From Lutibacter sp. (GTDB taxonomy: Bacteria > Bacteroidota > Bacteroidia > Flavobacteriales > Flavobacteriaceae), in assembly GCA_030694935.1 (NCBI GenBank), contig JAUYUA010000047.1, forward strand, positions 1 through 56,038: a DNA stretch of 56,038 bases, read 5' to 3'. Position numbers and translations under genes: made by a program. Shown here in pieces: positions 15,741-41,486 of the stretch; within the stretch, counting starts at the first letter, position 1, and each line of letters begins with the position of its first letter. The notes beneath the pieces are model-generated. The model saw only the letters and a program-made list of their open reading frames with translations, was not told the DNA's origin and searched no databases.

Positions 15741-16204
15741 TTTGTTATTTTACAGGAAGTTCAAAGGAATTTTCTTGAATTTTTGTAAATTTATAAGTTG
15801 TTAGGTAAATTATTCTTTCCTTTTTTCCTGAGTTCCGCATTTTAACACCCAAAATCACTGTCTAATTACACTTTAATAACTATTTACCAATAAGTTATAG
15901 TTTTAATAAAATTAGAGTACGGAAGTCAGGTGAGGTTAATGTATGTTTAAAATCAATAAAAACTTAACCGCAATGAACGCAATGAAAATGCGCAAAGAAC
16001 GCAAATAACAGATTAAAATATATGGCTATCTAATTGCGTAACTTGCGAAAAAACTTTGCGTCCCGATCTATCGGGATTGCGGTTAAAAGACCTAATTAAC
16101 TTGTTTATCATAAATTAAATTTTTCTCCGTGTAACTTTGTGATTCTTGGTGTAACTTTGTGCCATAACTTTTACACAGAGTCACACAAAGAAAAAAATAA
16201 AGAC
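15741..16204. repeat. Gene-free stretch of repeat remnants
   Basis: Contents: a 24-nt block (15821-15844) that matches 16305-16328 at 23 positions; an element framed by TTAACCGCAA (from 15964) and TTGCGGTTAA (about 16077-16086) with several AACGCAAAG-like units; the nested palindrome TCCCGATCTATCGGGA (16061-16076); and at 16125-16212 an array of CTTTGTG/CACAAAG units in opposite orientation around a 9-nt centre. On the minus strand a 31-codon tail (MRNSGKKERIIYL...) ends at the terminator and may be the relic of a gene. Confidence 0.65.
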
Positions 16205-16552
16205 TCACAAAGATGAATGGCTTATTAAATTCAGATAAGAACCATTAATATATTTAAAAATTTCACCCAGATTTAATATGAAATCCCCTCTTCTTGTCGT
16301 ATTGTTTTTTCCTGAGTTTCGCATTTTACCATCGGCGGCAATCATTTTCAAACCGTGACAATTCGTCACGGTTTCATTACCTTCTGCTTTAAGTCTTTGC
16401 TTTAGTTTTCGCCAATAGGCAAGAACATCCTTACTCTCAGTAAGAATTGCTACAACATCAACAATAGAAAAATACCATTTTTCCTCATCTTCATTCCATA
16501 AAGAACGAACTTGCTTTTGTTCAAACAGTTTTAATGCGGTTTCTTTTGTCAT
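16205..16552 (-). pseudogene. Truncated BRO-N-type (phage antirepressor-like) gene
   Basis: 115 aa. Residues 1-78 read as a BRO-N domain of the Bacteroidota type (KLFEQKQVRSLWNEDEEKWY, FSIVDVVAILTES, YWRKLKQRLKAEGNETVTNC, HGLKMIAADGKMR). Homologues normally continue for well over 100 residues after DGKMR. Here the frame runs into unrelated sequence (NSGKNNTTRRGD...) and stops. The break point lies at a 24-nt sequence (16305-16328) repeated at 15821-15844, so a rearrangement between repeats probably removed the C-terminus. The BRO-N part may bind DNA, but a functional product is doubtful. Confidence 0.7.
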
Positions 16553-28682: not shown

Positions 28683-29238
28683 ATGAAAAATGAAATCGCC
28701 ATTCCCGATGAAATAATTACCAATAAAATATATTTAATCAGGGAACAAAAAGTAATGTTGGACAGGGATTTGGCTGATCTATATAAAGTAGAAACCAAAC
28801 AATTGAAGAGACAAGTTCGCAGAAACATAGAACGTTTTCCTGAAGATTTTATGTTTCAATTAAATAATAAAGAGTTTACAAATTGGAGGAGCCAATTTGG
28901 CACCTCCAATATTTCCGATAAAATGGGATTACGTTATGCTCCTTTCGCTTTTACTGAGCAAGCCTGTCCTGAGGAGCCGAAGGGGTGTCGCGATGTTGTC
29001 AAGCGTTTTAAGCAGCCAAACCGCCATCAAAGTAAATATTCAAATAATAAGGGTATTTACCAAATTAAGACAGATGTTTACCGATAATTTAAGCATTAAA
29101 CTTGAAATTGCCGAAATAAAAAAGAATCTCTCCAATCAAAATAAAAATATAGAATTGGTTTTCAGCTACTTGGATGAATTGTTAGAAAAGAAAGAAAATG
29201 AAATTCCAAGAACAAAAATAGGCTACAAAAAAGATTAA
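28683..29238 (+). pseudogene. ORF6N-domain (phage regulatory) gene broken by a 22-bp repeat insertion
   Basis: The first part from ATG 28683 reads as an ORF6N domain: IPDEIITNKIYLIREQKVML, DRDLADLYKVETKQLKRQVR, RNIERFPEDFMFQL and GLRYAPFAFTEQ. After TEQ the frame is lost. Homologues continue GVAMLSSVL, and exactly this continues in another frame (VAMLSSVLSSQTAIKVNIQI, then IRVFTKLRQMF to a stop at 29238). Deleting 28963-28984 restores one uninterrupted frame of about 178 residues. The inserted 22 bp, CCTGTCCTGAGGAGCCGAAGGG, belong to the dispersed palindromic family seen in the formate dehydrogenase gene. The intact protein would be a phage-type DNA-binding regulator. Confidence 0.85.
28963..28984. 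repeat. 22-bp dispersed repeat inserted in ORF6N gene
   Basis: Related to the reverse complement of the CCCTTCGACTCCGCTCAGGG element at 31733. Its removal joins GAGCAAG to GTGTCGCGATG and repairs the reading frame. Confidence 0.8.
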
Positions 29239-31046: not shown

Positions 31047-32750
31047 ATGGCAAATAAAAATATACGCTCGTTATCGTTTAGAAAGGAATTGGATGATAAT
31101 TTGTTCGAAAATATCGCAGATTTATCGCATAAAAACGCTCCTAATTCCGATTTTCAGGAACTGGCAAAACGATTTATGATTGATGACTCCGTGATAGCAG
31201 GCACTGCTTCTTTTTACGATTTTACCAGAGAAAGCAATCGGAACAAAAAAATTCATGTGTGCAGCGGAACGGCTTGCATGGTTGCAAATACCCAAAATAA
31301 ATTGCATCAGCATTTAGAAAAACATTTTGACAAAGAGGAAATCGGTCACGCTGCCTGCGTGGGACGTTGCCACACCAACAATGCGTTTATGTTTAACGGC
31401 AATACCTATTCGGCCAAAAATGAAGCTGAGTTAACCGATATTTTGTCACTTCGAGCCCTTCGACTTGGCTCAGGACAAGCAACGTCGAGAAGTCAAGAGA
31501 ATATTTACAACATTGCTTGCAACACCACACCAATTTTAACGTCAAAAATTGAAGATATTGAAGCGTTTTATCAATTGGCTGAAATTCATAAAAACAATCC
31601 GAAACAGGTAATTCAGGAAATTAAAACATCGAATTTACGCGGCCGAGGCGGTGCCGGATTTCCGTTTTGGTTTAAATTGGATGCCGTTATTTCGGCTCCG
31701 CTCAATAACCCTATTTCGGGTTCCGTAAAAGAACCCTTCGACTCCGCTCAGGGTAAACAAAAATACATTGTTTGCAATGCCGATGAAGGTGATCCCGGCG
31801 CTTATTCTGATATGTATTTGATGGAACATCAGGCACATAAAGTGCTTTTCGGAATGTATATGGCTGGATTGACCGTCGGCGCAAATACCGGCGTTTTATA
31901 CATCAGGGGAGAATATCCCGACTCCATTCGCATTGTTGGTGAAGCGATTGAATTTTTAAAAGAAAAAAATCTGATTGGCGATTTTAAATTCAAGATTATT
32001 CGCGGACAAGGTTCTTATGTTTGCGGGGAAGAAACTGCTTTATTAAGTTCCATTGAAGGTTTGCGTCCCGAAGTTCGTGTTCGTCCGCCCTATCCCGCCC
32101 AATATGGTTTGTATGGAAAGCCTACCGTTTTAAGCAATGTGGAAACATTTGCGAACATTCATTGGATTTTGGAAAATGGCGGAGAAGCTTATGCGGCTTT
32201 GGGAACAAAACAATCTACCGGAACAAAACTGGTTTCCTTGGACAGTTTTTTCAACTCGCCAGGAATGTATGAAATTGAAATGGGAACGCCTTTAAAAACT
32301 ATTTTTGAGGTTTTTGGGAACGGATTAAAGTCGGAAATAAAAGCATTTCAAATAGGAGGGCCTTTGGGCGGCATTGTGCCTTTTGATAAAATTAAAGATT
32401 TAACGTTGGATTTTGAATCGTTAAACAACCACGGATTTTTATTGGGCCACGCAAGTGTGGTTTCCATTCCAAAAGATTTTCCGATGATTCAGTTTCTGGA
32501 ACATTTAATGGAATTTACTGCGGATGAATCCTGCGGAAAATGTTATCCGTGCAGAATCGGTTCTTTTAGAGGCATGGAAATGCTTCAAAAAGCGCAACAT
32601 GAAAACTATAAAATTGACCGTCAGTTATTTGATGATTTGTTGGAAACTTTGGAAATAGGGTCACTTTGCGCATTAGGCGGCGGAATTCCGTTGCCGGTAA
32701 AAAACGCCTTGCAATATTTTGAGGAAGAGTTGAAACAGTATTTTAAATAG
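31047..32750 (+). CDS. NAD-linked formate dehydrogenase diaphorase subunit (NuoE/NuoF-like fusion) with in-frame repeat insertions
   Basis: 567 aa. The N-terminal NuoE-type domain (about 30-135) holds a [2Fe-2S] site, CSGTAC and CVGRC. The NuoF-type part (about 175-560) binds FMN and NAD: LRGRGGAGFPFWFKL, IVCNADEGDPGAYSDMYLME, GQGSYVCGEETALLSSIEG, then the [4Fe-4S] site ESCGKCYPCRIGS. It passes electrons from the catalytic subunit downstream to NAD. Two stretches, about residues 134-149 (LRALRLGSGQATSRSQ) and 216-236 (APLNNPISGSVKEPFDSAQG), coincide with dispersed palindromic repeats at the DNA level and look like in-frame insertions at domain edges. Intact otherwise. Confidence 0.9.
   Translation: MANKNIRSLSFRKELDDNLFENIADLSHKNAPNSDFQELAKRFMIDDSVIAGTASFYDFTRESNRNKKIHVCSGTACMVANTQNKLHQHLEKHFDKEEIGHAACVGRCHTNNAFMFNGNTYSAKNEAELTDILSLRALRLGSGQATSRSQENIYNIACNTTPILTSKIEDIEAFYQLAEIHKNNPKQVIQEIKTSNLRGRGGAGFPFWFKLDAVISAPLNNPISGSVKEPFDSAQGKQKYIVCNADEGDPGAYSDMYLMEHQAHKVLFGMYMAGLTVGANTGVLYIRGEYPDSIRIVGEAIEFLKEKNLIGDFKFKIIRGQGSYVCGEETALLSSIEGLRPEVRVRPPYPAQYGLYGKPTVLSNVETFANIHWILENGGEAYAALGTKQSTGTKLVSLDSFFNSPGMYEIEMGTPLKTIFEVFGNGLKSEIKAFQIGGPLGGIVPFDKIKDLTLDFESLNNHGFLLGHASVVSIPKDFPMIQFLEHLMEFTADESCGKCYPCRIGSFRGMEMLQKAQHENYKIDRQLFDDLLETLEIGSLCALGGGIPLPVKNALQYFEEELKQYFK
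31448..31493. repeat. Palindromic repeat inserted in frame (site 1)
   Basis: Begins ACTTCGAGCCCTTCGACTTG and ends GTCGAGAAGT, with inverted ends ACTTCGA/TCGAGAAGT. It belongs to the CCTTCGACT..GCTCAGG family and encodes the linker between the NuoE- and NuoF-like domains. Confidence 0.75.
31694..31754. repeat. Palindromic repeat inserted in frame (site 2)
   Basis: Two CTCCGCTCA boxes (from 31696 and 31742) surround hairpins AACCC/GGGTT (31707-31722) and ACCCT/AGGGT (ending 31754). The peptide interrupts the NuoF-like domain just before IVCNADEGDPG. Confidence 0.75.
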
Positions 32751-32765
32751 AGTTTAAAAAAATTA

Positions 32766-32805
32766 TTACACAAAGACACCCAGAGTAACACAAAGATTCA
32801 CAAAG
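32766..32805. repeat. Left 10-bp-unit array flanking GxxExxY gene
   Basis: Starts TTACAC and repeats ACACAAAGAC / ACCCAGAGTA / ACACAAAGAT / TCACAAAG with a 10-bp period. Inverted partner at 33185-33224: 29 of 40 positions pair. It ends 4 bp before the GxxExxY ATG. Confidence 0.8.
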
Positions 32806-32809
32806 AAAA

Positions 32810-33181
32810 ATGACTGAAAACGAAATAGCAAGTATTATTATTGGAAAAGCAATAGCTGTCCATAGAGAACTTGGGCCTGGATTGTTGGAATCAACATATC
32901 AGGAATGTCTTTTTTATGAATTAAAAAATAGCAATTTATTGGTTGCAAAAGAAATAGCATTGCCCATAATTTATAAAGATATTAAATTAGATCACGGATA
33001 CAGAATTGACTTATTAGTTGAAAATAAAGTGGTTATTGAAATAAAAACGGTAGAATTTTTAAATGATGTACATACAGCACAAATTCTGACTTATATGAAA
33101 CTGGGTAATTATAAATTAGGATTATTATTGAATTTTAATGTAAAACTTTTAAAAGAAGGCATCAAAAGATTTAAACTTTAA
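32810..33181 (+). CDS. GxxExxY protein (PD-(D/E)XK nuclease superfamily)
   Basis: 123 aa. The name-giving motif is GLLESTY in ELGPGLLESTYQECL. The nuclease-type core is visible as YRIDLLVENKVVIEIKTVE, with Asp, then Glu-x-Lys, as in PDDEXK_3 family members. The biological role of GxxExxY proteins is not established. The gene fills the space between two inverted arrays of 10-bp CACAAAG units and separates two subunit genes of formate dehydrogenase that are normally adjacent. This suggests a mobile or parasitic cassette. The ATG lies 4 bp after the left array and the stop 4 bp before the right one, so almost nothing else is inside the cassette. Confidence 0.88.
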   Translation: MTENEIASIIIGKAIAVHRELGPGLLESTYQECLFYELKNSNLLVAKEIALPIIYKDIKLDHGYRIDLLVENKVVIEIKTVEFLNDVHTAQILTYMKLGNYKLGLLLNFNVKLLKEGIKRFKL

Positions 33182-33184
33182 AAT

Positions 33185-33224
33185 CTCCGTGAATCTCTGT
33201 GATTCTTTGTGAATCTCAGTGTAA
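33185..33224. repeat. Right 10-bp-unit array flanking GxxExxY gene
   Basis: CTCCGTGAATCTCTGTGATTC continuing to CAGTGTAA, the inverted counterpart of 32766-32805. It ends 6 bp before the fdhA ATG and so replaces the leader of that gene. Confidence 0.8.
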
Positions 33225-33230
33225 CAAAAA

Positions 33231-35954
33231 ATGAAAATCATGAAAGCATTTATAAACAACATCGAACACGAATTCTTGCAAGGGGAAACCATGCTGGAAT
33301 TTGTCAGAAGAATTGAGGAAAACAAAAATGCCATTCCGACTATGTGCCAGGATGACCGATTGGAAAATTTTGGTTCGTGCAGGGTTTGTTCTGTTGATGT
33401 GGCGCGTGAAAAAGACGGTTTAACAAAAACTTTGGCTTCTTGCCACACGCCTATTTCTGAAGGATTGTATATTTATCCAAACACAGAAAAAATGAAACGC
33501 CTTCGTAAAAATATAGTCGAATTGGTATTGACCGATTATCCTGCAGATAAAGTTTTTCCATCCGCAGGAAAAAAAGCAACGCCATTTCAAGAAACTATTG
33601 CACAAATTGGAATTCCGAATATCCGTTATCCTCAAGGAAAAAATCATTTAGATATTCAGCCTGACAGGGCGCATCCTTATATAAAATCGGATTTATCGCA
33701 GTGCATCAATTGTTTTAGATGCGTAAGAGCTTGTGAAGAAATTCAGGGAGAAATGATTTTGGGAATGTCGGGTCGCGGATTCGCAACCAACATTATCAAA
33801 GGTTTCGACACCACTTTTAACGAATCGGCCTGTGTTTCTTGCGGCGCCTGCGTACAAACTTGTCCAACCGAAGCTTTGACCGATAAATATGAAACCAAAA
33901 CCTTAATTCCAGATAAAACCGTAAGAACCACCTGTACCTATTGCGGCGTTGGCTGCCAGTTGGAAGTGGCCGTTATCGATGGAAAAATCAGGGGAATTCA
34001 AGCCCCGGAAACTGCTGAAGTAAATCAGGGACATACCTGTTTAAAAGGCCGTTTTGCATTTCAGTTTTACAACCATCCTGATAGGTTGCGGGAACCTATG
34101 ATTAAAAAGAACGGCAAATTTGAAGTGGTCACTTGGGATGAAGCTTATGATTTTATAGTTTCAAAATTAATTGACATCAAAAATAAATATGGCGCAGATG
34201 CCATTGGCGGAATTTCTTCATCGCGAGCAACCAACGAAGAAAATTATTTAATGCAAAAAATGATTCGTGTAGCTGTTGGCACCAACAATATTGATGGCTG
34301 TGCACGTGTTTGCCACGCTCCTACTGCCTTCGGAATGCAAAAAGCGTTTGGAACCGGCGCTGCCACAAACTCCATAGAAGAATTAAAACTATCCGATGCA
34401 ATTTTCTTGTTTGGGGCAAACCCGATAAAAGGCCATCCGGTAACGGGCGCAAAAATTAAGCAGGCTTTTATGAAAGGCGTCACTTCCATTGTTGTTGACC
34501 CAATCAGAACGAGTTTGGCAGATTTGGCGACTTATTTTCTTCAGATCAGGCCGGGAACCAATGTGGCTGTTCTAAATATGATGTCATATTATATCATTAA
34601 AGAAGGATTGGTGAATCAGCATTTTATTGATTCTTATACGGAAAAATATGAGGAATTTAAAAGCCATGTGGAACATCTAAATATGGATGAACTGGAAACA
34701 CTTACCGGAGTTTCCAAAGAATTGGTTAAAGAGGCTGCGATTGCTTATGCATCTGCAGAGAGAGCGATGGAATTTCATGGTTTGGGGGTAACGGAACATT
34801 TTCAGGGAAGCAAAACGGTGATGTTGTTGTCTAATTTAGCGATGATGACAGGGAATGTTGGACGAAATGGCGTTGGTTTAAATCCGTTGCGCGGACAAAA
34901 TAATGTTCAGGGCTCAGCCGATATGGGCGTACAACCGCATCAGGGAGCTGGTTATATGGATGTCAGCAAACCCGATGTTCAGCAGTATTATGCACAAAAA
35001 TACGGGATTGAAAAAATGCCGGAAAGTACAGGATTGAAAATTCCGCAAATGCTGGATGCAGCCATCAACGGTAAAATTAAAGCCTTGTATATTATGGGAG
35101 AAGACACCATTATGACCGACCCGAATTCCTACCACAGCATAAAAGCTTTTGAAAAATTAGAATTGATTGTGGTGCAGGAATTATTTATGACCGCAACATC
35201 AGAAATGGCTGATGTGGTATTGCCGGCTTCCTCCTATTTTGAAAAGAACGGCACTTTTACCAACGGAGAACGTCGCGTGCAACGTGTAAATAAAGTGATT
35301 GAACCTATAGGAAACACAAAGCCTGACGGACAAATTATCATTGATGTGATGAGCCGATTGGGATACGACCAACCGACCGGCCTGACTTATGATGCCGCAA
35401 AAGTGATTGAAGAAATTGCCGATGTTATTCCTTTTATGAAAGGGTTGACTTGGGACAGATTGGGTGATAACGGACTGCAATGGCCAATTAAAGAAGACGG
35501 AACCGATACAAAAATGCTTCATATTGGTGGCAATTTCAGAAAAGGAATAGGAACTTTTCATCATTTTGATTTTGAAGAATCACCGGAAATTGTTTCTCAC
35601 GGAAAAAATTATCCGTTTATACTGACTACTGGGCGAGAACTGGAACATTACAATTCGGGCACCATGACACGCAGAACCGACAATCAGCTCATTTTGGGAG
35701 AAGACATTTTAGAAGTGCATCCAAAAGACGCAATGGCGAAAGGAATTAAAGATGGTGACATTGTTAGCCTGTTTTCCGACAGAGGTAGCGTTAACATTCC
35801 TGTAAAATACGCCAAATCGGTAAAAAGAGGCATTTTAAGAACGACTTTTCACCAACCTGAAGTATTTATCAATTTAATCACAGGAAGCGTTGGAGACAAA
35901 GACACTATGACTCCCGAATACAAAGTGGTTGCCGTTGATTTTGAAAAAATTTAA
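33231..35954 (+). CDS. fdhA: Formate dehydrogenase catalytic (molybdopterin) subunit
   Basis: 907 aa. Oxidises formate to CO2 at a molybdenum or tungsten bis-MGD site. Domains in order: [2Fe-2S] ferredoxin (about 1-85; MCQDDRLENFGSCRVCSV and SCHTP), His-Cys-type and two [4Fe-4S] clusters (CINCFRCVRACEE, CVSCGACVQTCP), a further [4Fe-4S] motif (CTYCGVGCQLEV), then the molybdopterin oxidoreductase domain with Cys361 in CARVCHAPT at the position taken by Cys or selenocysteine in this family, and the dinucleotide-binding C-terminus (FILTTGRELEHYNSGTMTRR). A start at 33240 is an alternative. Its NAD-side partner gene is upstream, beyond the GxxExxY cassette. Confidence 0.93.
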   Translation: MKIMKAFINNIEHEFLQGETMLEFVRRIEENKNAIPTMCQDDRLENFGSCRVCSVDVAREKDGLTKTLASCHTPISEGLYIYPNTEKMKRLRKNIVELVLTDYPADKVFPSAGKKATPFQETIAQIGIPNIRYPQGKNHLDIQPDRAHPYIKSDLSQCINCFRCVRACEEIQGEMILGMSGRGFATNIIKGFDTTFNESACVSCGACVQTCPTEALTDKYETKTLIPDKTVRTTCTYCGVGCQLEVAVIDGKIRGIQAPETAEVNQGHTCLKGRFAFQFYNHPDRLREPMIKKNGKFEVVTWDEAYDFIVSKLIDIKNKYGADAIGGISSSRATNEENYLMQKMIRVAVGTNNIDGCARVCHAPTAFGMQKAFGTGAATNSIEELKLSDAIFLFGANPIKGHPVTGAKIKQAFMKGVTSIVVDPIRTSLADLATYFLQIRPGTNVAVLNMMSYYIIKEGLVNQHFIDSYTEKYEEFKSHVEHLNMDELETLTGVSKELVKEAAIAYASAERAMEFHGLGVTEHFQGSKTVMLLSNLAMMTGNVGRNGVGLNPLRGQNNVQGSADMGVQPHQGAGYMDVSKPDVQQYYAQKYGIEKMPESTGLKIPQMLDAAINGKIKALYIMGEDTIMTDPNSYHSIKAFEKLELIVVQELFMTATSEMADVVLPASSYFEKNGTFTNGERRVQRVNKVIEPIGNTKPDGQIIIDVMSRLGYDQPTGLTYDAAKVIEEIADVIPFMKGLTWDRLGDNGLQWPIKEDGTDTKMLHIGGNFRKGIGTFHHFDFEESPEIVSHGKNYPFILTTGRELEHYNSGTMTRRTDNQLILGEDILEVHPKDAMAKGIKDGDIVSLFSDRGSVNIPVKYAKSVKRGILRTTFHQPEVFINLITGSVGDKDTMTPEYKVVAVDFEKI

Positions 35955-36376
35955 AATTGAGGCAATGGGCAAAAAAGGCAATAGGGAACAGTCCGAAGAC
36001 CGAAGACGGAAGACCGAAGTTCAAAAAGAGAATAAGAAATAGGCAAAATGGATTTTTGATTTACGATTTACGATATCAGATTTACAATGTTAAATATTGA
36101 GTTCACTCTGAAAAGTGGCTAATGCTAAAAAATCAGTTTTCCCCAACCCTAAAGCCCGCCTACGGCCAGCAGGCTTGCCTACCGGCAGGTAGGGGTGACT
36201 GATTTTCAGTAACTTCTCCCTTTAGGGCAGGGGTAAAAAGTTGCTGAAAATTGAATATTGGACTTAGCGGAGCGGACTCAATATTAAATGTTAGGAATTT
36301 CTTCCGTCTTCGGTCTTCGGACTTCGGACTTTTTAACTTTTAACTTTCAACTTTAAAACTTTTCAACTAATAATAA
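35955..36376. repeat. Repeat-filled spacer between fdhA and fdhD
   Basis: No gene. CCGAAGACCGAAGACGGAAG (from 35980) is mirrored by CTTCCGTCTTCGGTCTTCGG (from 36302), a 300-bp spaced inverted pair. Between them lies a GC-rich element (about 36143-36236) with GCCTACCGGCAGGTAGG and outer halves CCCTAAAG/CTTTAGGG. TTTAACTTT-like tandem units precede fdhD. Confidence 0.7.
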
Positions 36377-37153
36377 ATGCAGACATTAAATTACGAAGGT
36401 TTACAACTGACAAACGGGGTTCCGCAAAAAGTAACCGATACTTTGGTGGTTGAGGCTGCTTTGCAAATAAATATAAATAATGAACCATACACGGTGGTTA
36501 TGCGAACGCCGGGAGACGATTTTGAGTTGATAAGAGGTTTGTTATATGCGGAAGATATTTATAAGGGAAAAGAAAATTTGGTGATTGAAGTCGTTGAAAA
36601 ACGCGAAAACGGGTTTTCAATACTAAACGTTACCATCAATAAAAAAAATCTCGGTAAAGGATATTTAAACAAACGCACCTTGCTTTCTGTATCCTCATGC
36701 GGCATTTGCGGCAAACAAAAATTGGAAGACATTAATTACAGTGGCGTCAAATTAGTCAACAACGCTATTTTCGACATCACAAGATTGTCGGCAATGTTTG
36801 ATGAAATGAAATTGAAACAAGAAACATTTGAAATATCCGGAGGATCTCATGCTGCTGCCATTTTTAATAAAGATTATGAAATTATTTCTTTAAAAGAAGA
36901 TATTGGAAGACATAACGCAGTTGATAAAGTTGTAGGAGAATTGCTACATGTAAATCAATTAAAGGAATCTTTTGTGATGCTGGTAAGCGGAAGGGTTTCT
37001 TACGAAATTATTTCAAAAGCCTTTATCGCTAAAATTCCCATTGTGGTCGCTGTCTCAGCCTGTTCCACTTTAGCGGTGGATTTTGCCAAAGAATTTGGCA
37101 TTTGTTTGATTGGTTTTTCACGCGGCAACAAAGCGACTGTTTATGCTGAATAA
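36377..37153 (+). CDS. fdhD: Formate dehydrogenase accessory sulfurtransferase FdhD
   Basis: 258 aa. FdhD carries sulfur from the cysteine desulfurase IscS to the molybdenum cofactor of formate dehydrogenase, a step needed for activity. The conserved cysteine loop is present: SVSSCGICGK with Cys108 and Cys111. Other family marks are MRTPGDDFELIRGLLYAEDI, GGSHAAAIF, EDIGRHNAVDKVVGE and VSGRVSYEIISKAFIAKIPI. Its place directly after fdhA supports the formate dehydrogenase call. A 7-bp tandem repeat begins 4 bp after the stop. Confidence 0.95.
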   Translation: MQTLNYEGLQLTNGVPQKVTDTLVVEAALQININNEPYTVVMRTPGDDFELIRGLLYAEDIYKGKENLVIEVVEKRENGFSILNVTINKKNLGKGYLNKRTLLSVSSCGICGKQKLEDINYSGVKLVNNAIFDITRLSAMFDEMKLKQETFEISGGSHAAAIFNKDYEIISLKEDIGRHNAVDKVVGELLHVNQLKESFVMLVSGRVSYEIISKAFIAKIPIVVAVSACSTLAVDFAKEFGICLIGFSRGNKATVYAE

Positions 37154-37157
37154 GTTG

Positions 37158-37213
37158 GAAGACCGAAGACGGAAGACGGAAGACGGAAGACGGAAGACGG
37201 AAGACGGAAGACT
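37158..37213. repeat. 7-bp tandem repeat (8 units of GAAGACG)
   Basis: Eight units, the first GAAGACC, six GAAGACG, the last GAAGACT. The same unit appears in shorter runs on both sides of the fdhA-fdhD spacer. Confidence 0.9.
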
Positions 37214-37665
37214 GAAGTTCAGGAAGATCATTGATAACAAATACCAAAAATTCAAAATACATCCCCTACTAGTGCGAGCTCAATGTCATTCAGTTAAGGT
37301 GTTGCCGCCTCTTTTTTGTCCTTCCGAGGTACGAGGAATCTCATAATTGTTAGCTAATTTGATGTGATTCCTCCTTTGTCGGAATGACAAATATATCCTT
37401 AACTTAATGGTATTGCCCGCGAGCTTCCAGCTCGTGACTACGAAAATTAACTTTAATGGAAGCACGAGCGAGACGCTCGGGCAAGCATGGGGGTTAAACC
37501 TAAGATCCCGCTGAAAAAGCGGGATTAGTTCAACTTTCAATTTTTAGTGCGTCTTACAGACTTCTCAAAATTGAGTTTCACTAACAAACTGCACGATTTC
37601 ATAAACAAAACGCATCTTTTTAATAATATTTTGCAAAATATGTTGCATAATTAAAATCTTTATTT
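37214..37665. repeat. Gene-free stretch of dispersed repeats
   Basis: Contains an inverted pair TGTCATTC (37285) / GGAATGACA (37381), a GCGAGCTTCCAGCTCGTGAC / GCACGAGCGAGACGCTCG pair (about 37420-37485) and a hairpin ATCCCGC/GCGGGAT (37505-37525). Open frames here are by-products of the repeats. Confidence 0.65.
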
Positions 37666-41408: not shown

Positions 41409-41486
41409 TGGTGGGCAATGAGGGGTTCGAACCCCCGACCCCCTCGGTGTAAACGAGGTGCTCTGAACCAGCTGAGCTAATTGCCC
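41409..41486 (-). tRNA. tRNA-Val (anticodon TAC)
   Basis: The minus strand begins GGGCAATTAGCTCAGCTGG. Acceptor stem GGGCAAT/ATTGCCC, D stem GCTC/GAGC, anticodon stem CCTCG/CGAGG enclosing TTTACAC (anticodon TAC, valine), T loop TTCGAAC. The 3' CCA is encoded. Confidence 0.97.

Follow-up and report, generated by a model that had tools for sequence, protein, structure and literature searches.

A GxxExxY nuclease gene between inverted arrays splits fdhB from fdhA in Lutibacter sp. and is a candidate minimal mobile element

The window analysed here is a 56,038-nucleotide stretch of Lutibacter sp. DNA (contig JAUYUA010000047.1 of assembly GCA_030694935.1), in which a gene for a GxxExxY protein lies between two mirrored arrays of short repeats and separates fdhB from fdhA in the formate dehydrogenase (fdh) operon. 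The 5' neighbour encodes a NuoE/NuoF-like subunit and the 3' neighbour a molybdopterin oxidoreductase with a NuoG-like N-terminus, with an FdhD gene downstream. The features of the locus are as follows.

31047..32750, + strand, fdhB-like NuoE/NuoF-type subunit gene, separated from its partner fdhA; C-terminus ..YFK as compared with ..YFTTN in relatives with an empty site
32763..32806, + strand, left array of inward CACAAAG-type units with outer end TTATTA, from unit search and inverted-repeat pairing
32810..33181, + strand, GxxExxY gene, PD-(D/E)XK nuclease fold, 123 amino acids, from profiles and a structure model
33184..33227, - strand, right array, the inverted counterpart of the left one and also the probable fdhA leader, from unit search and inverted-repeat pairing
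33240..35954, + strand, fdhA molybdopterin subunit gene (the listed open reading frame starts at 33231)

The GxxExxY gene is full-length, and its product matches the PF13366 (PDDEXK_3) profile with 143.5 bits (cut-off 22), which is its sole Pfam match, and the TIGR04256 GxxExxY profile with 147.3 bits (cut-off 35), both over nearly the whole protein; the predicted structure likewise has a PD-(D/E)XK fold. The conserved GxxExxY and D..ExK residues are all present. Among 15 diverse family members G24, E27, Y30 and D67 are invariant and E77 and K79 nearly so, and in 48 closer members all six are invariant. The protein is under strong purifying selection at the fdh site (dN/dS of 0.05–0.17 among five genes). 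No other open reading frame (ORF) of at least 80 amino acids lies fully inside 32763–33227, as a 99-amino-acid reverse frame (33149–33448) merely overlaps the right array. A profile search of PDB sequences with the family gave no matches up to an E value of 1, and scans of the protein gave weak matches only, of Cas4 type in PADLOC (E 0.0023) and of Cas4/CRISPR type in PHROGs. The single Rfam match in the window is a tRNA (41412–41486), and no intrinsic terminator was found in 32600–33400; promoter-like matches are present around this interval, which we count as no evidence of function.

In the left array CACAAAG units start at 32769, 32789 and 32799 and a CCCAGAG unit at 32779; the right units, on the reverse strand, start at 33185, 33195, 33205 and 33215. 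The two arms form a 44-nt inverted pair that is 73% complementary. The profiles, unit positions and arm pairing together confirm the first-pass annotation, made from the letters of this DNA, which had described a GxxExxY gene between inverted arrays splitting the fdh operon. Allowing up to three mismatches, CACAAAGNNNCACAAAG occurs 21 times in the window against 7.97 expected, a count reached in none of 100 shuffles; part of these matches belong to a gene-less palindrome at 16125–16212. A chance origin of the arrays is rejected, or at least weakened, by this shuffle test and by the control ORFs described below. The units form CRCNRAG/T arrays, and no GTAG consensus was found in the 12 bases before the outermost unit. 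The annotation had also argued from the 10-bp period that the units present one DNA face per helical turn, and this does not hold: among 217 arms with at least two units, start-to-start spacings of 10 (113 times) and 9 (109 times) are about equally common, followed by 11 (41), 8 (29) and 12 (23). The 10-bp spacing in the window is thus a local feature, and helical phasing as a general rule is rejected. Its claim that the right array supplies the fdhA leader fares better, with a corrected start. Because most close relatives align from residue 2–4 and empty sites begin at that ATG, fdhA probably starts at 33240 rather than 33231, and the right array would therefore be its leader, the last unit ending ∼18 nt upstream.

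We compared 166 distinct GxxExxY loci, drawn from genus, order, phylum and named genomes. From 158 matches 137 were kept (N-truncated and duplicate loci, flanks below 60 bases and scores below 60 being dropped) before loci of the phylum set were added; the 80 named loci are best matches and no random draw. An inward unit was defined as CRCNRAG or CRCNRAT within 80 bp of the gene, and 181 neighbouring ORFs from the same stretches served as controls. At least two inward units on both sides were found at 69/166 GxxExxY loci and at none of the 181 control ORFs, 29 PF05635 genes or 21 GIY-YIG genes, which bears out the earlier claim that arrays and gene belong together. At least one inward unit on both sides occurs at 89/166 loci and at 4/181 controls, and no unit on either side at 28/166 and 141/181, respectively. 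CRCNRAG words number 473 inward and 99 outward in the 166 loci, with 19 inward in the controls. The left flank scores 13.17 against the reverse complement of its own right flank and 8.33 against mismatched arms, and the own-arm score exceeds the 95% level of mismatched pairs at 78/166 loci. Self-match of GxxExxY flanks peaks at lags 9–12 (0.31–0.34 as compared with ∼0.28), while control flanks are flat; periodic flanks were not found at the 21 GIY-YIG loci. When frames of 70–320 amino acids with adequate flanks were scanned for arm scores of at least 16, 42 of the resulting 55 were GxxExxY genes, nine PF05635 genes and four others; these loci had been fetched for GxxExxY and PF05635 among others, and their neighbours are the control. 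Array units are also seen at loci whose records carry the labels Planctomycetota (L190), Anaerolineales (L237) and Ignavibacteria (L236), in the last case on a single side. An unusually long array cluster, a run of 13 two-unit matches, surrounds one GxxExxY gene in G290 (C39:425152–426113, gene 425569–425916).

The letters of the arrays vary with the protein. Arm similarity rises from 7.9 at 30–50% protein identity through 8.59 (50–60%) and 9.73 (60–70%) to 11.83 (70–85%), and protein identity predicts it among pairs below 85% identity (Mantel r 0.386, reached in 0/500 permutations); Mantel and Fisher values given here ignore phylogeny. With proteins clustered by average linkage at one cut, AG words outnumber AT words at 88 loci of the main subfamily and AT words outnumber AG words at two; for the remaining clusters the numbers are 16 and 31, with ties excluded. 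The split is visible within single genomes. Of the G000 paralogues, L001 has seven AG and no AT words, L002 has none and three, and L003 none and four; G002, G009, G023, G029, G050, G061 and G066 are similar, and in G064, G088 and G098 the split is not clear. Paralogues of one genome that are less than 60% identical are only slightly more alike in their arms than other such pairs (8.60, n=44, against 8.17), while pairs of 60–85% identity score 10.07. By these comparisons the word of an array is tied more closely to the nuclease subfamily than to the genome.

Many arrays stand without a gene. The Lutibacter sp. genome holds 54 two-unit CRCRRAG matches, as compared with two for a reversed control, and only three of the 54 lie in the stretch around the 32810–33181 gene. 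Arrays away from such genes, which the annotation had named as a finding that would speak against its proposal if equally common, are thus many, yet high array numbers are confined to genomes carrying the gene, so that the outcome for this condition is mixed. Among 100 relatives, 15 have at least five two-unit matches and PF13366 is present in 15/15 of these and in 39/100 overall; none of the 61 relatives lacking PF13366 has more than one match. Of 198 Bacteroidota genomes 101 have PF13366, including 23/23 with at least 11 matches and 27/28 with at least eight, the exception being G112 (10 matches, with three in its control). Related genomes are not independent in these counts, and the 15 array-rich relatives represent four genera. 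Of the 31 GxxExxY stretches fetched from these 15 (two fragment loci, L129 and L131, left out), nine carry two-unit CRCRRAG arrays, all nine belonging to the main subfamily. In the window, two gene-less palindromes of different words lie within a composite repeat of ∼505 bp (15826–16331), copies of which are 84–94% identical within the Lutibacter sp. genome and 83–96% identical in G009.

15963..16086, gene-less CGCAAAG/CGCAATG-type palindrome with outer ends TTAACCGC and GCGGTTAA, polarity as in the gene-bearing unit, a short spacer replacing the gene
16125..16212, gene-less CACAAAG palindrome with units facing outward from the centre, polarity opposite to the gene-bearing unit, from RNA fold and unit search

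All 15 CACAAAG gene-less pairs picked by eye among the matches listed for the Lutibacter sp. genome are inside-out relative to the gene-bearing unit, and they look as if two outer ends had been abutted; gene-less pairs of opposite polarity were listed in some other genomes.

The first-pass annotation had suggested looking for an empty site in relatives, with the two subunit genes adjoining. Among the fdhA loci of 30 relatives, 16 have an fdhB–fdhA gap of 6–11 nt, including G004, the closest by fdhA (99% identical); eight have the array-gene-array unit (the Lutibacter sp. genome included), in two the unit is absent and the gap longer (58 and 132 nt), and four were not resolved by the script. 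This comparison identifies the unit as an insert between the two subunit genes. The GxxExxY gene with CACAAAG arms occurs at the same site in G009, G029, G034 and G023 (88–98% identical), while in G002 and G005 the site holds a ∼60% identical GxxExxY gene with CGCAAAG-type arms; a related copy is found in G014, where the contig begins, and a broken copy in G001. The fdhA match in G029 (L067) and G034 (L068) holds one TAA stop. At least two different units thus occupy the site, which is empty in close relatives of filled genomes. Synonymous divergence (dS) of gene and fdhA, rough values as the gene is short, is 0.569 and 0.267 for G000–G009 and 0.174 and 0.573 for G000–G029. Identity between G000 and G029 is 84.5% immediately upstream of the left array, rises to 96.5%, 100% and 99% over the array and the first half of the gene, and is 94% and less thereafter, a profile that fits transfer or conversion of element sequence, in the left half only, rather than inheritance along with the operon. 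Simple vertical co-inheritance of unit and operon is rejected, or at least weakened, by the empty sites and by this mismatch in divergence between gene and flank. Filled and empty alleles occur at the fdh site, as does discordance of gene and flank; homing, in which a sequence-specific endonuclease would invade empty alleles of its site, may be involved. Its history may be one old gain with losses, or repeated arrival.

We propose that the left array, GxxExxY gene and right array constitute a minimal mobile element that works like a pair of repetitive extragenic palindromes (REP) and their REP-associated tyrosine transposase (RAYT), with an unrelated nuclease in place of the transposase, and we put the probability of this at roughly 0.55. 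The computed basis is the association of gene and arrays, the matched arms, the agreement of word and subfamily, the insertion in an operon, the dispersed gene-less arrays, homology running from array to array in some copies at different sites, and purifying selection on the protein. From these we infer recognition of the array, cutting and the route of movement. The gene would encode a small PD-(D/E)XK nuclease, and the mirrored arrays would be the ends of the element and presumably the sites that the nuclease binds or cuts. The nuclease may cut or nick its own class of array, upon which host repair or replication would follow, bringing the whole unit, or pairs of arrays lacking the gene, into other intergenic regions; each nuclease subfamily would thereby keep a population of arrays of its own word.

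Movement itself can be judged from 31 GxxExxY pairs with identity of at least 0.895 and comparable flanks. Seven of these pairs lie at different sites, and in the six tested the homology runs from 19–74 bp before the start to 21–104 bp past the stop, into both arrays, and then ends. This part of the earlier suggestion of a mobile element stands, and movement of the unit is likely but rare. Several observations weigh against the proposal. The other 24 pairs share their site, and persistence at one site is therefore commoner than movement; vertical persistence without arrays had been named as a contrary finding, and what we saw at the fdh site was a gene persisting together with its arrays. The seven different-site pairs form two related groups within one protein cluster of this genus. 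They sit in what we take, from the starts of neighbouring proteins, to be polysaccharide loci; shuffling is common in such loci and is an alternative explanation for these pairs. Homology in the more distant different-site pairs L232/L231 and L195/L225 does not end cleanly at both arrays. By eye we saw no target-site duplication in filled as compared with empty fdh sites, the flanks being much changed, and since an 84% identical GxxExxY gene with differently arranged units lies at the fdhB–fdhA site in G127 (L293), of another genus in the same family, one clean gain does not account for what happened at this site. As to generality, 97/166 loci lack two inward units on both sides, the 28 without any unit among them, and AT words accompany one gene of the main subfamily (L104 in G088). 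The genes' own arms inflate the array counts (13/19 matches in G290 lie round one gene), and because of this, and because RAYT-like matches occur in all 15 array-rich relatives, the correlation of gene and arrays across genomes is not specific.

This last point bears on the reading in which RAYT transposases spread the arrays as REP-like repeats and the GxxExxY gene is a passenger among them. The RAYT profile NF047646 matches at E ≤0.001 in 15/15 array-rich relatives and 43/100 genomes overall (8/15 and 16/100 over the curated cut-off), so that RAYT-like presence and GxxExxY presence correlate with arrays to a similar degree (Fisher 6e-7 and 1e-7, respectively), and gene-less arrays are dispersed palindromes, as this reading has it. 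Yet 20 RAYT stretches (18 from array-rich genomes, 45.9 kb) contain no two-unit CRCRRAG arrays, and RAYTs as movers of the arrays are rejected or at least weakened by this; ∼0.8 arrays would be expected at the average density of the Lutibacter sp. genome, and the result is therefore one of no linkage, not of avoidance. In the five RAYT stretches where the script found a frame, three have other inverted flanks (arm scores 18.5–36.5) and none has array units on both sides. That the array word follows GxxExxY subfamily within one genome also speaks against RAYTs, and we regard this explanation as distinctly unlikely. The RAYT-type genes L370 and L302 each have inverted flanks of a different kind (arm scores 36.5 and 16), the L302 gene falling below the Pfam Y1_Tnp cut-off.

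We weighed two further readings. The arrays could be operators through which a host-adapted nuclease, in defence or stress for example, controls its own expression, the dispersed copies being extra binding sites; their position immediately upstream of the start codon and downstream of the stop codon, the strong purifying selection and the persistence of many copies at one site agree with this. Mirrored arms with outer ends and gain at a site empty in relatives do not, nor do dispersed copies 84–94% identical within the Lutibacter sp. genome and array-to-array homology at different sites, and the PADLOC matches are weak and of Cas4 type; we consider operators unlikely. At the RNA level, pairing of the two arms in the transcript could close a long stem, with the gene in its loop, that processing would remove from the operon mRNA, as happens with intervening sequences of 23S rRNA. 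The two arms of a locus complement each other, almost perfectly in L234 and L240, spacers match in register at 50/87 and out of register at 19/45 (random 0.36), two gene-less palindromes have strong RNA folds (z -4.06 and -5.07), and a parallel plan is seen in PF05635, to which the proteins of rRNA intervening sequences belong. However, the window arms pair at just 73%, unit letters are kept while spacers differ, which fits recognition by protein, and neither the dispersed gene-less arrays nor the subfamily-specific words are explained; RNA processing seems very unlikely.

The mobile-element proposal finds its closest parallel in REP/RAYT systems (REPtrons, REPINs), for which two papers describe inverted repeats at the gene and dispersed copies whose abundance and class follow the protein (PMC3116915; PMC8266576). 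The GxxExxY units share the inverted repeats, the gene-less copies, and the ties of repeat abundance to gene presence and of repeat class to protein; cognate inverted repeats at the gene together with dispersed copies, as in a REPtron, are present here, cognate meaning that the word follows the subfamily. They differ in their enzyme, a PD-(D/E)XK nuclease where the RAYT is an HUH (Y1) tyrosine transposase, in their arrays of 7-letter units spaced 8–12 bp, where a REP is a 20–50-nt palindrome preceded by GTAG, and in that the GxxExxY gene is often multi-copy with some copies at different sites. Like insertion sequences and miniature inverted-repeat transposable elements, they have one gene between terminal inverted repeats and gene-less palindromes with the same words, but there is no DDE or HUH transposase between the arms, the ends are periodic arrays, and the target-site duplication is not seen. 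Unlike a casposon, the unit has no second gene of at least 80 amino acids between its arms, and there is no Cas1 among seven window proteins scanned. In contrast to Cas4 and other small PD-(D/E)XK nucleases, no CRISPR genes surround it and Cas4 profiles match only weakly, and unlike an intervening sequence it lies between fdhB and fdhA and not in a 23S rRNA gene.

Genes of the PF05635 family, four-helix-bundle proteins of 23S rRNA intervening sequences, likewise stand between inverted arrays in these genomes. They occur in 44/60 genomes, their own-arm score exceeds the 95% level of mismatched arms at 16/29 loci, and their flanks self-match at 0.473 at lag 7 against a background of ∼0.30. Differences from GxxExxY lie in the unrelated fold, in the array period of 7 as opposed to 9–12, and in the lack of CRCNRAG/T units on both sides (0/29). 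Loci L133–L162 (e.g. L147, L144, L134 and L149) have inverted 7-bp-period arrays whose letters differ between loci. The family is related to Avd, a protein of diversity-generating retroelements (PMC10053308), and to the rRNA intervening-sequence protein (PMC4990558). More tentatively than for the unit itself, we suggest a broad class of minimal mobile elements, as yet without a name, in each of which a PD-(D/E)XK nuclease acts unaided by any transposase or integrase and may maintain and spread subfamily-specific inverted arrays together with itself, and a parallel class built on four-helix-bundle (Avd-like) proteins; the protein family would set the array period (9–10 or 7), and the letters would drift in step with the protein.

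In the literature on GxxExxY, as far as the sources extend, we found nothing on arrays or function. A search by title and abstract opening, its coverage excluding subscription journals and preprints, returned no description of a nuclease-array pairing. PF13366 proteins are present in about half of the Bacteroidota sample (101/198 genomes). If the proposal is correct, the pairing would give the GxxExxY family a testable function, would explain a class of dispersed palindromes, and would be a second case, unrelated in its enzyme, of a REPtron-like partnership. Since each subfamily has its own word, exchanging the arrays of two proteins from the same genome would be a direct test of recognition.

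Elsewhere in the window, the fdhD gene (36377–37153) is framed by inverted 7-bp-period arrays without a PF05635 gene, at 36300–36368 (TCTTCGG) and 37157–37217 (GGAAGAC), with an arm score of 22. By eye, segments of two predicted proteins resemble repeat sequences inserted in coding DNA: RALRLGSGQAT and KEPFDSAQGKQ in the fdhB-like protein (31047–32750), and ACPEEPKGCRD in the product of an ORF6N gene (28683–29087).

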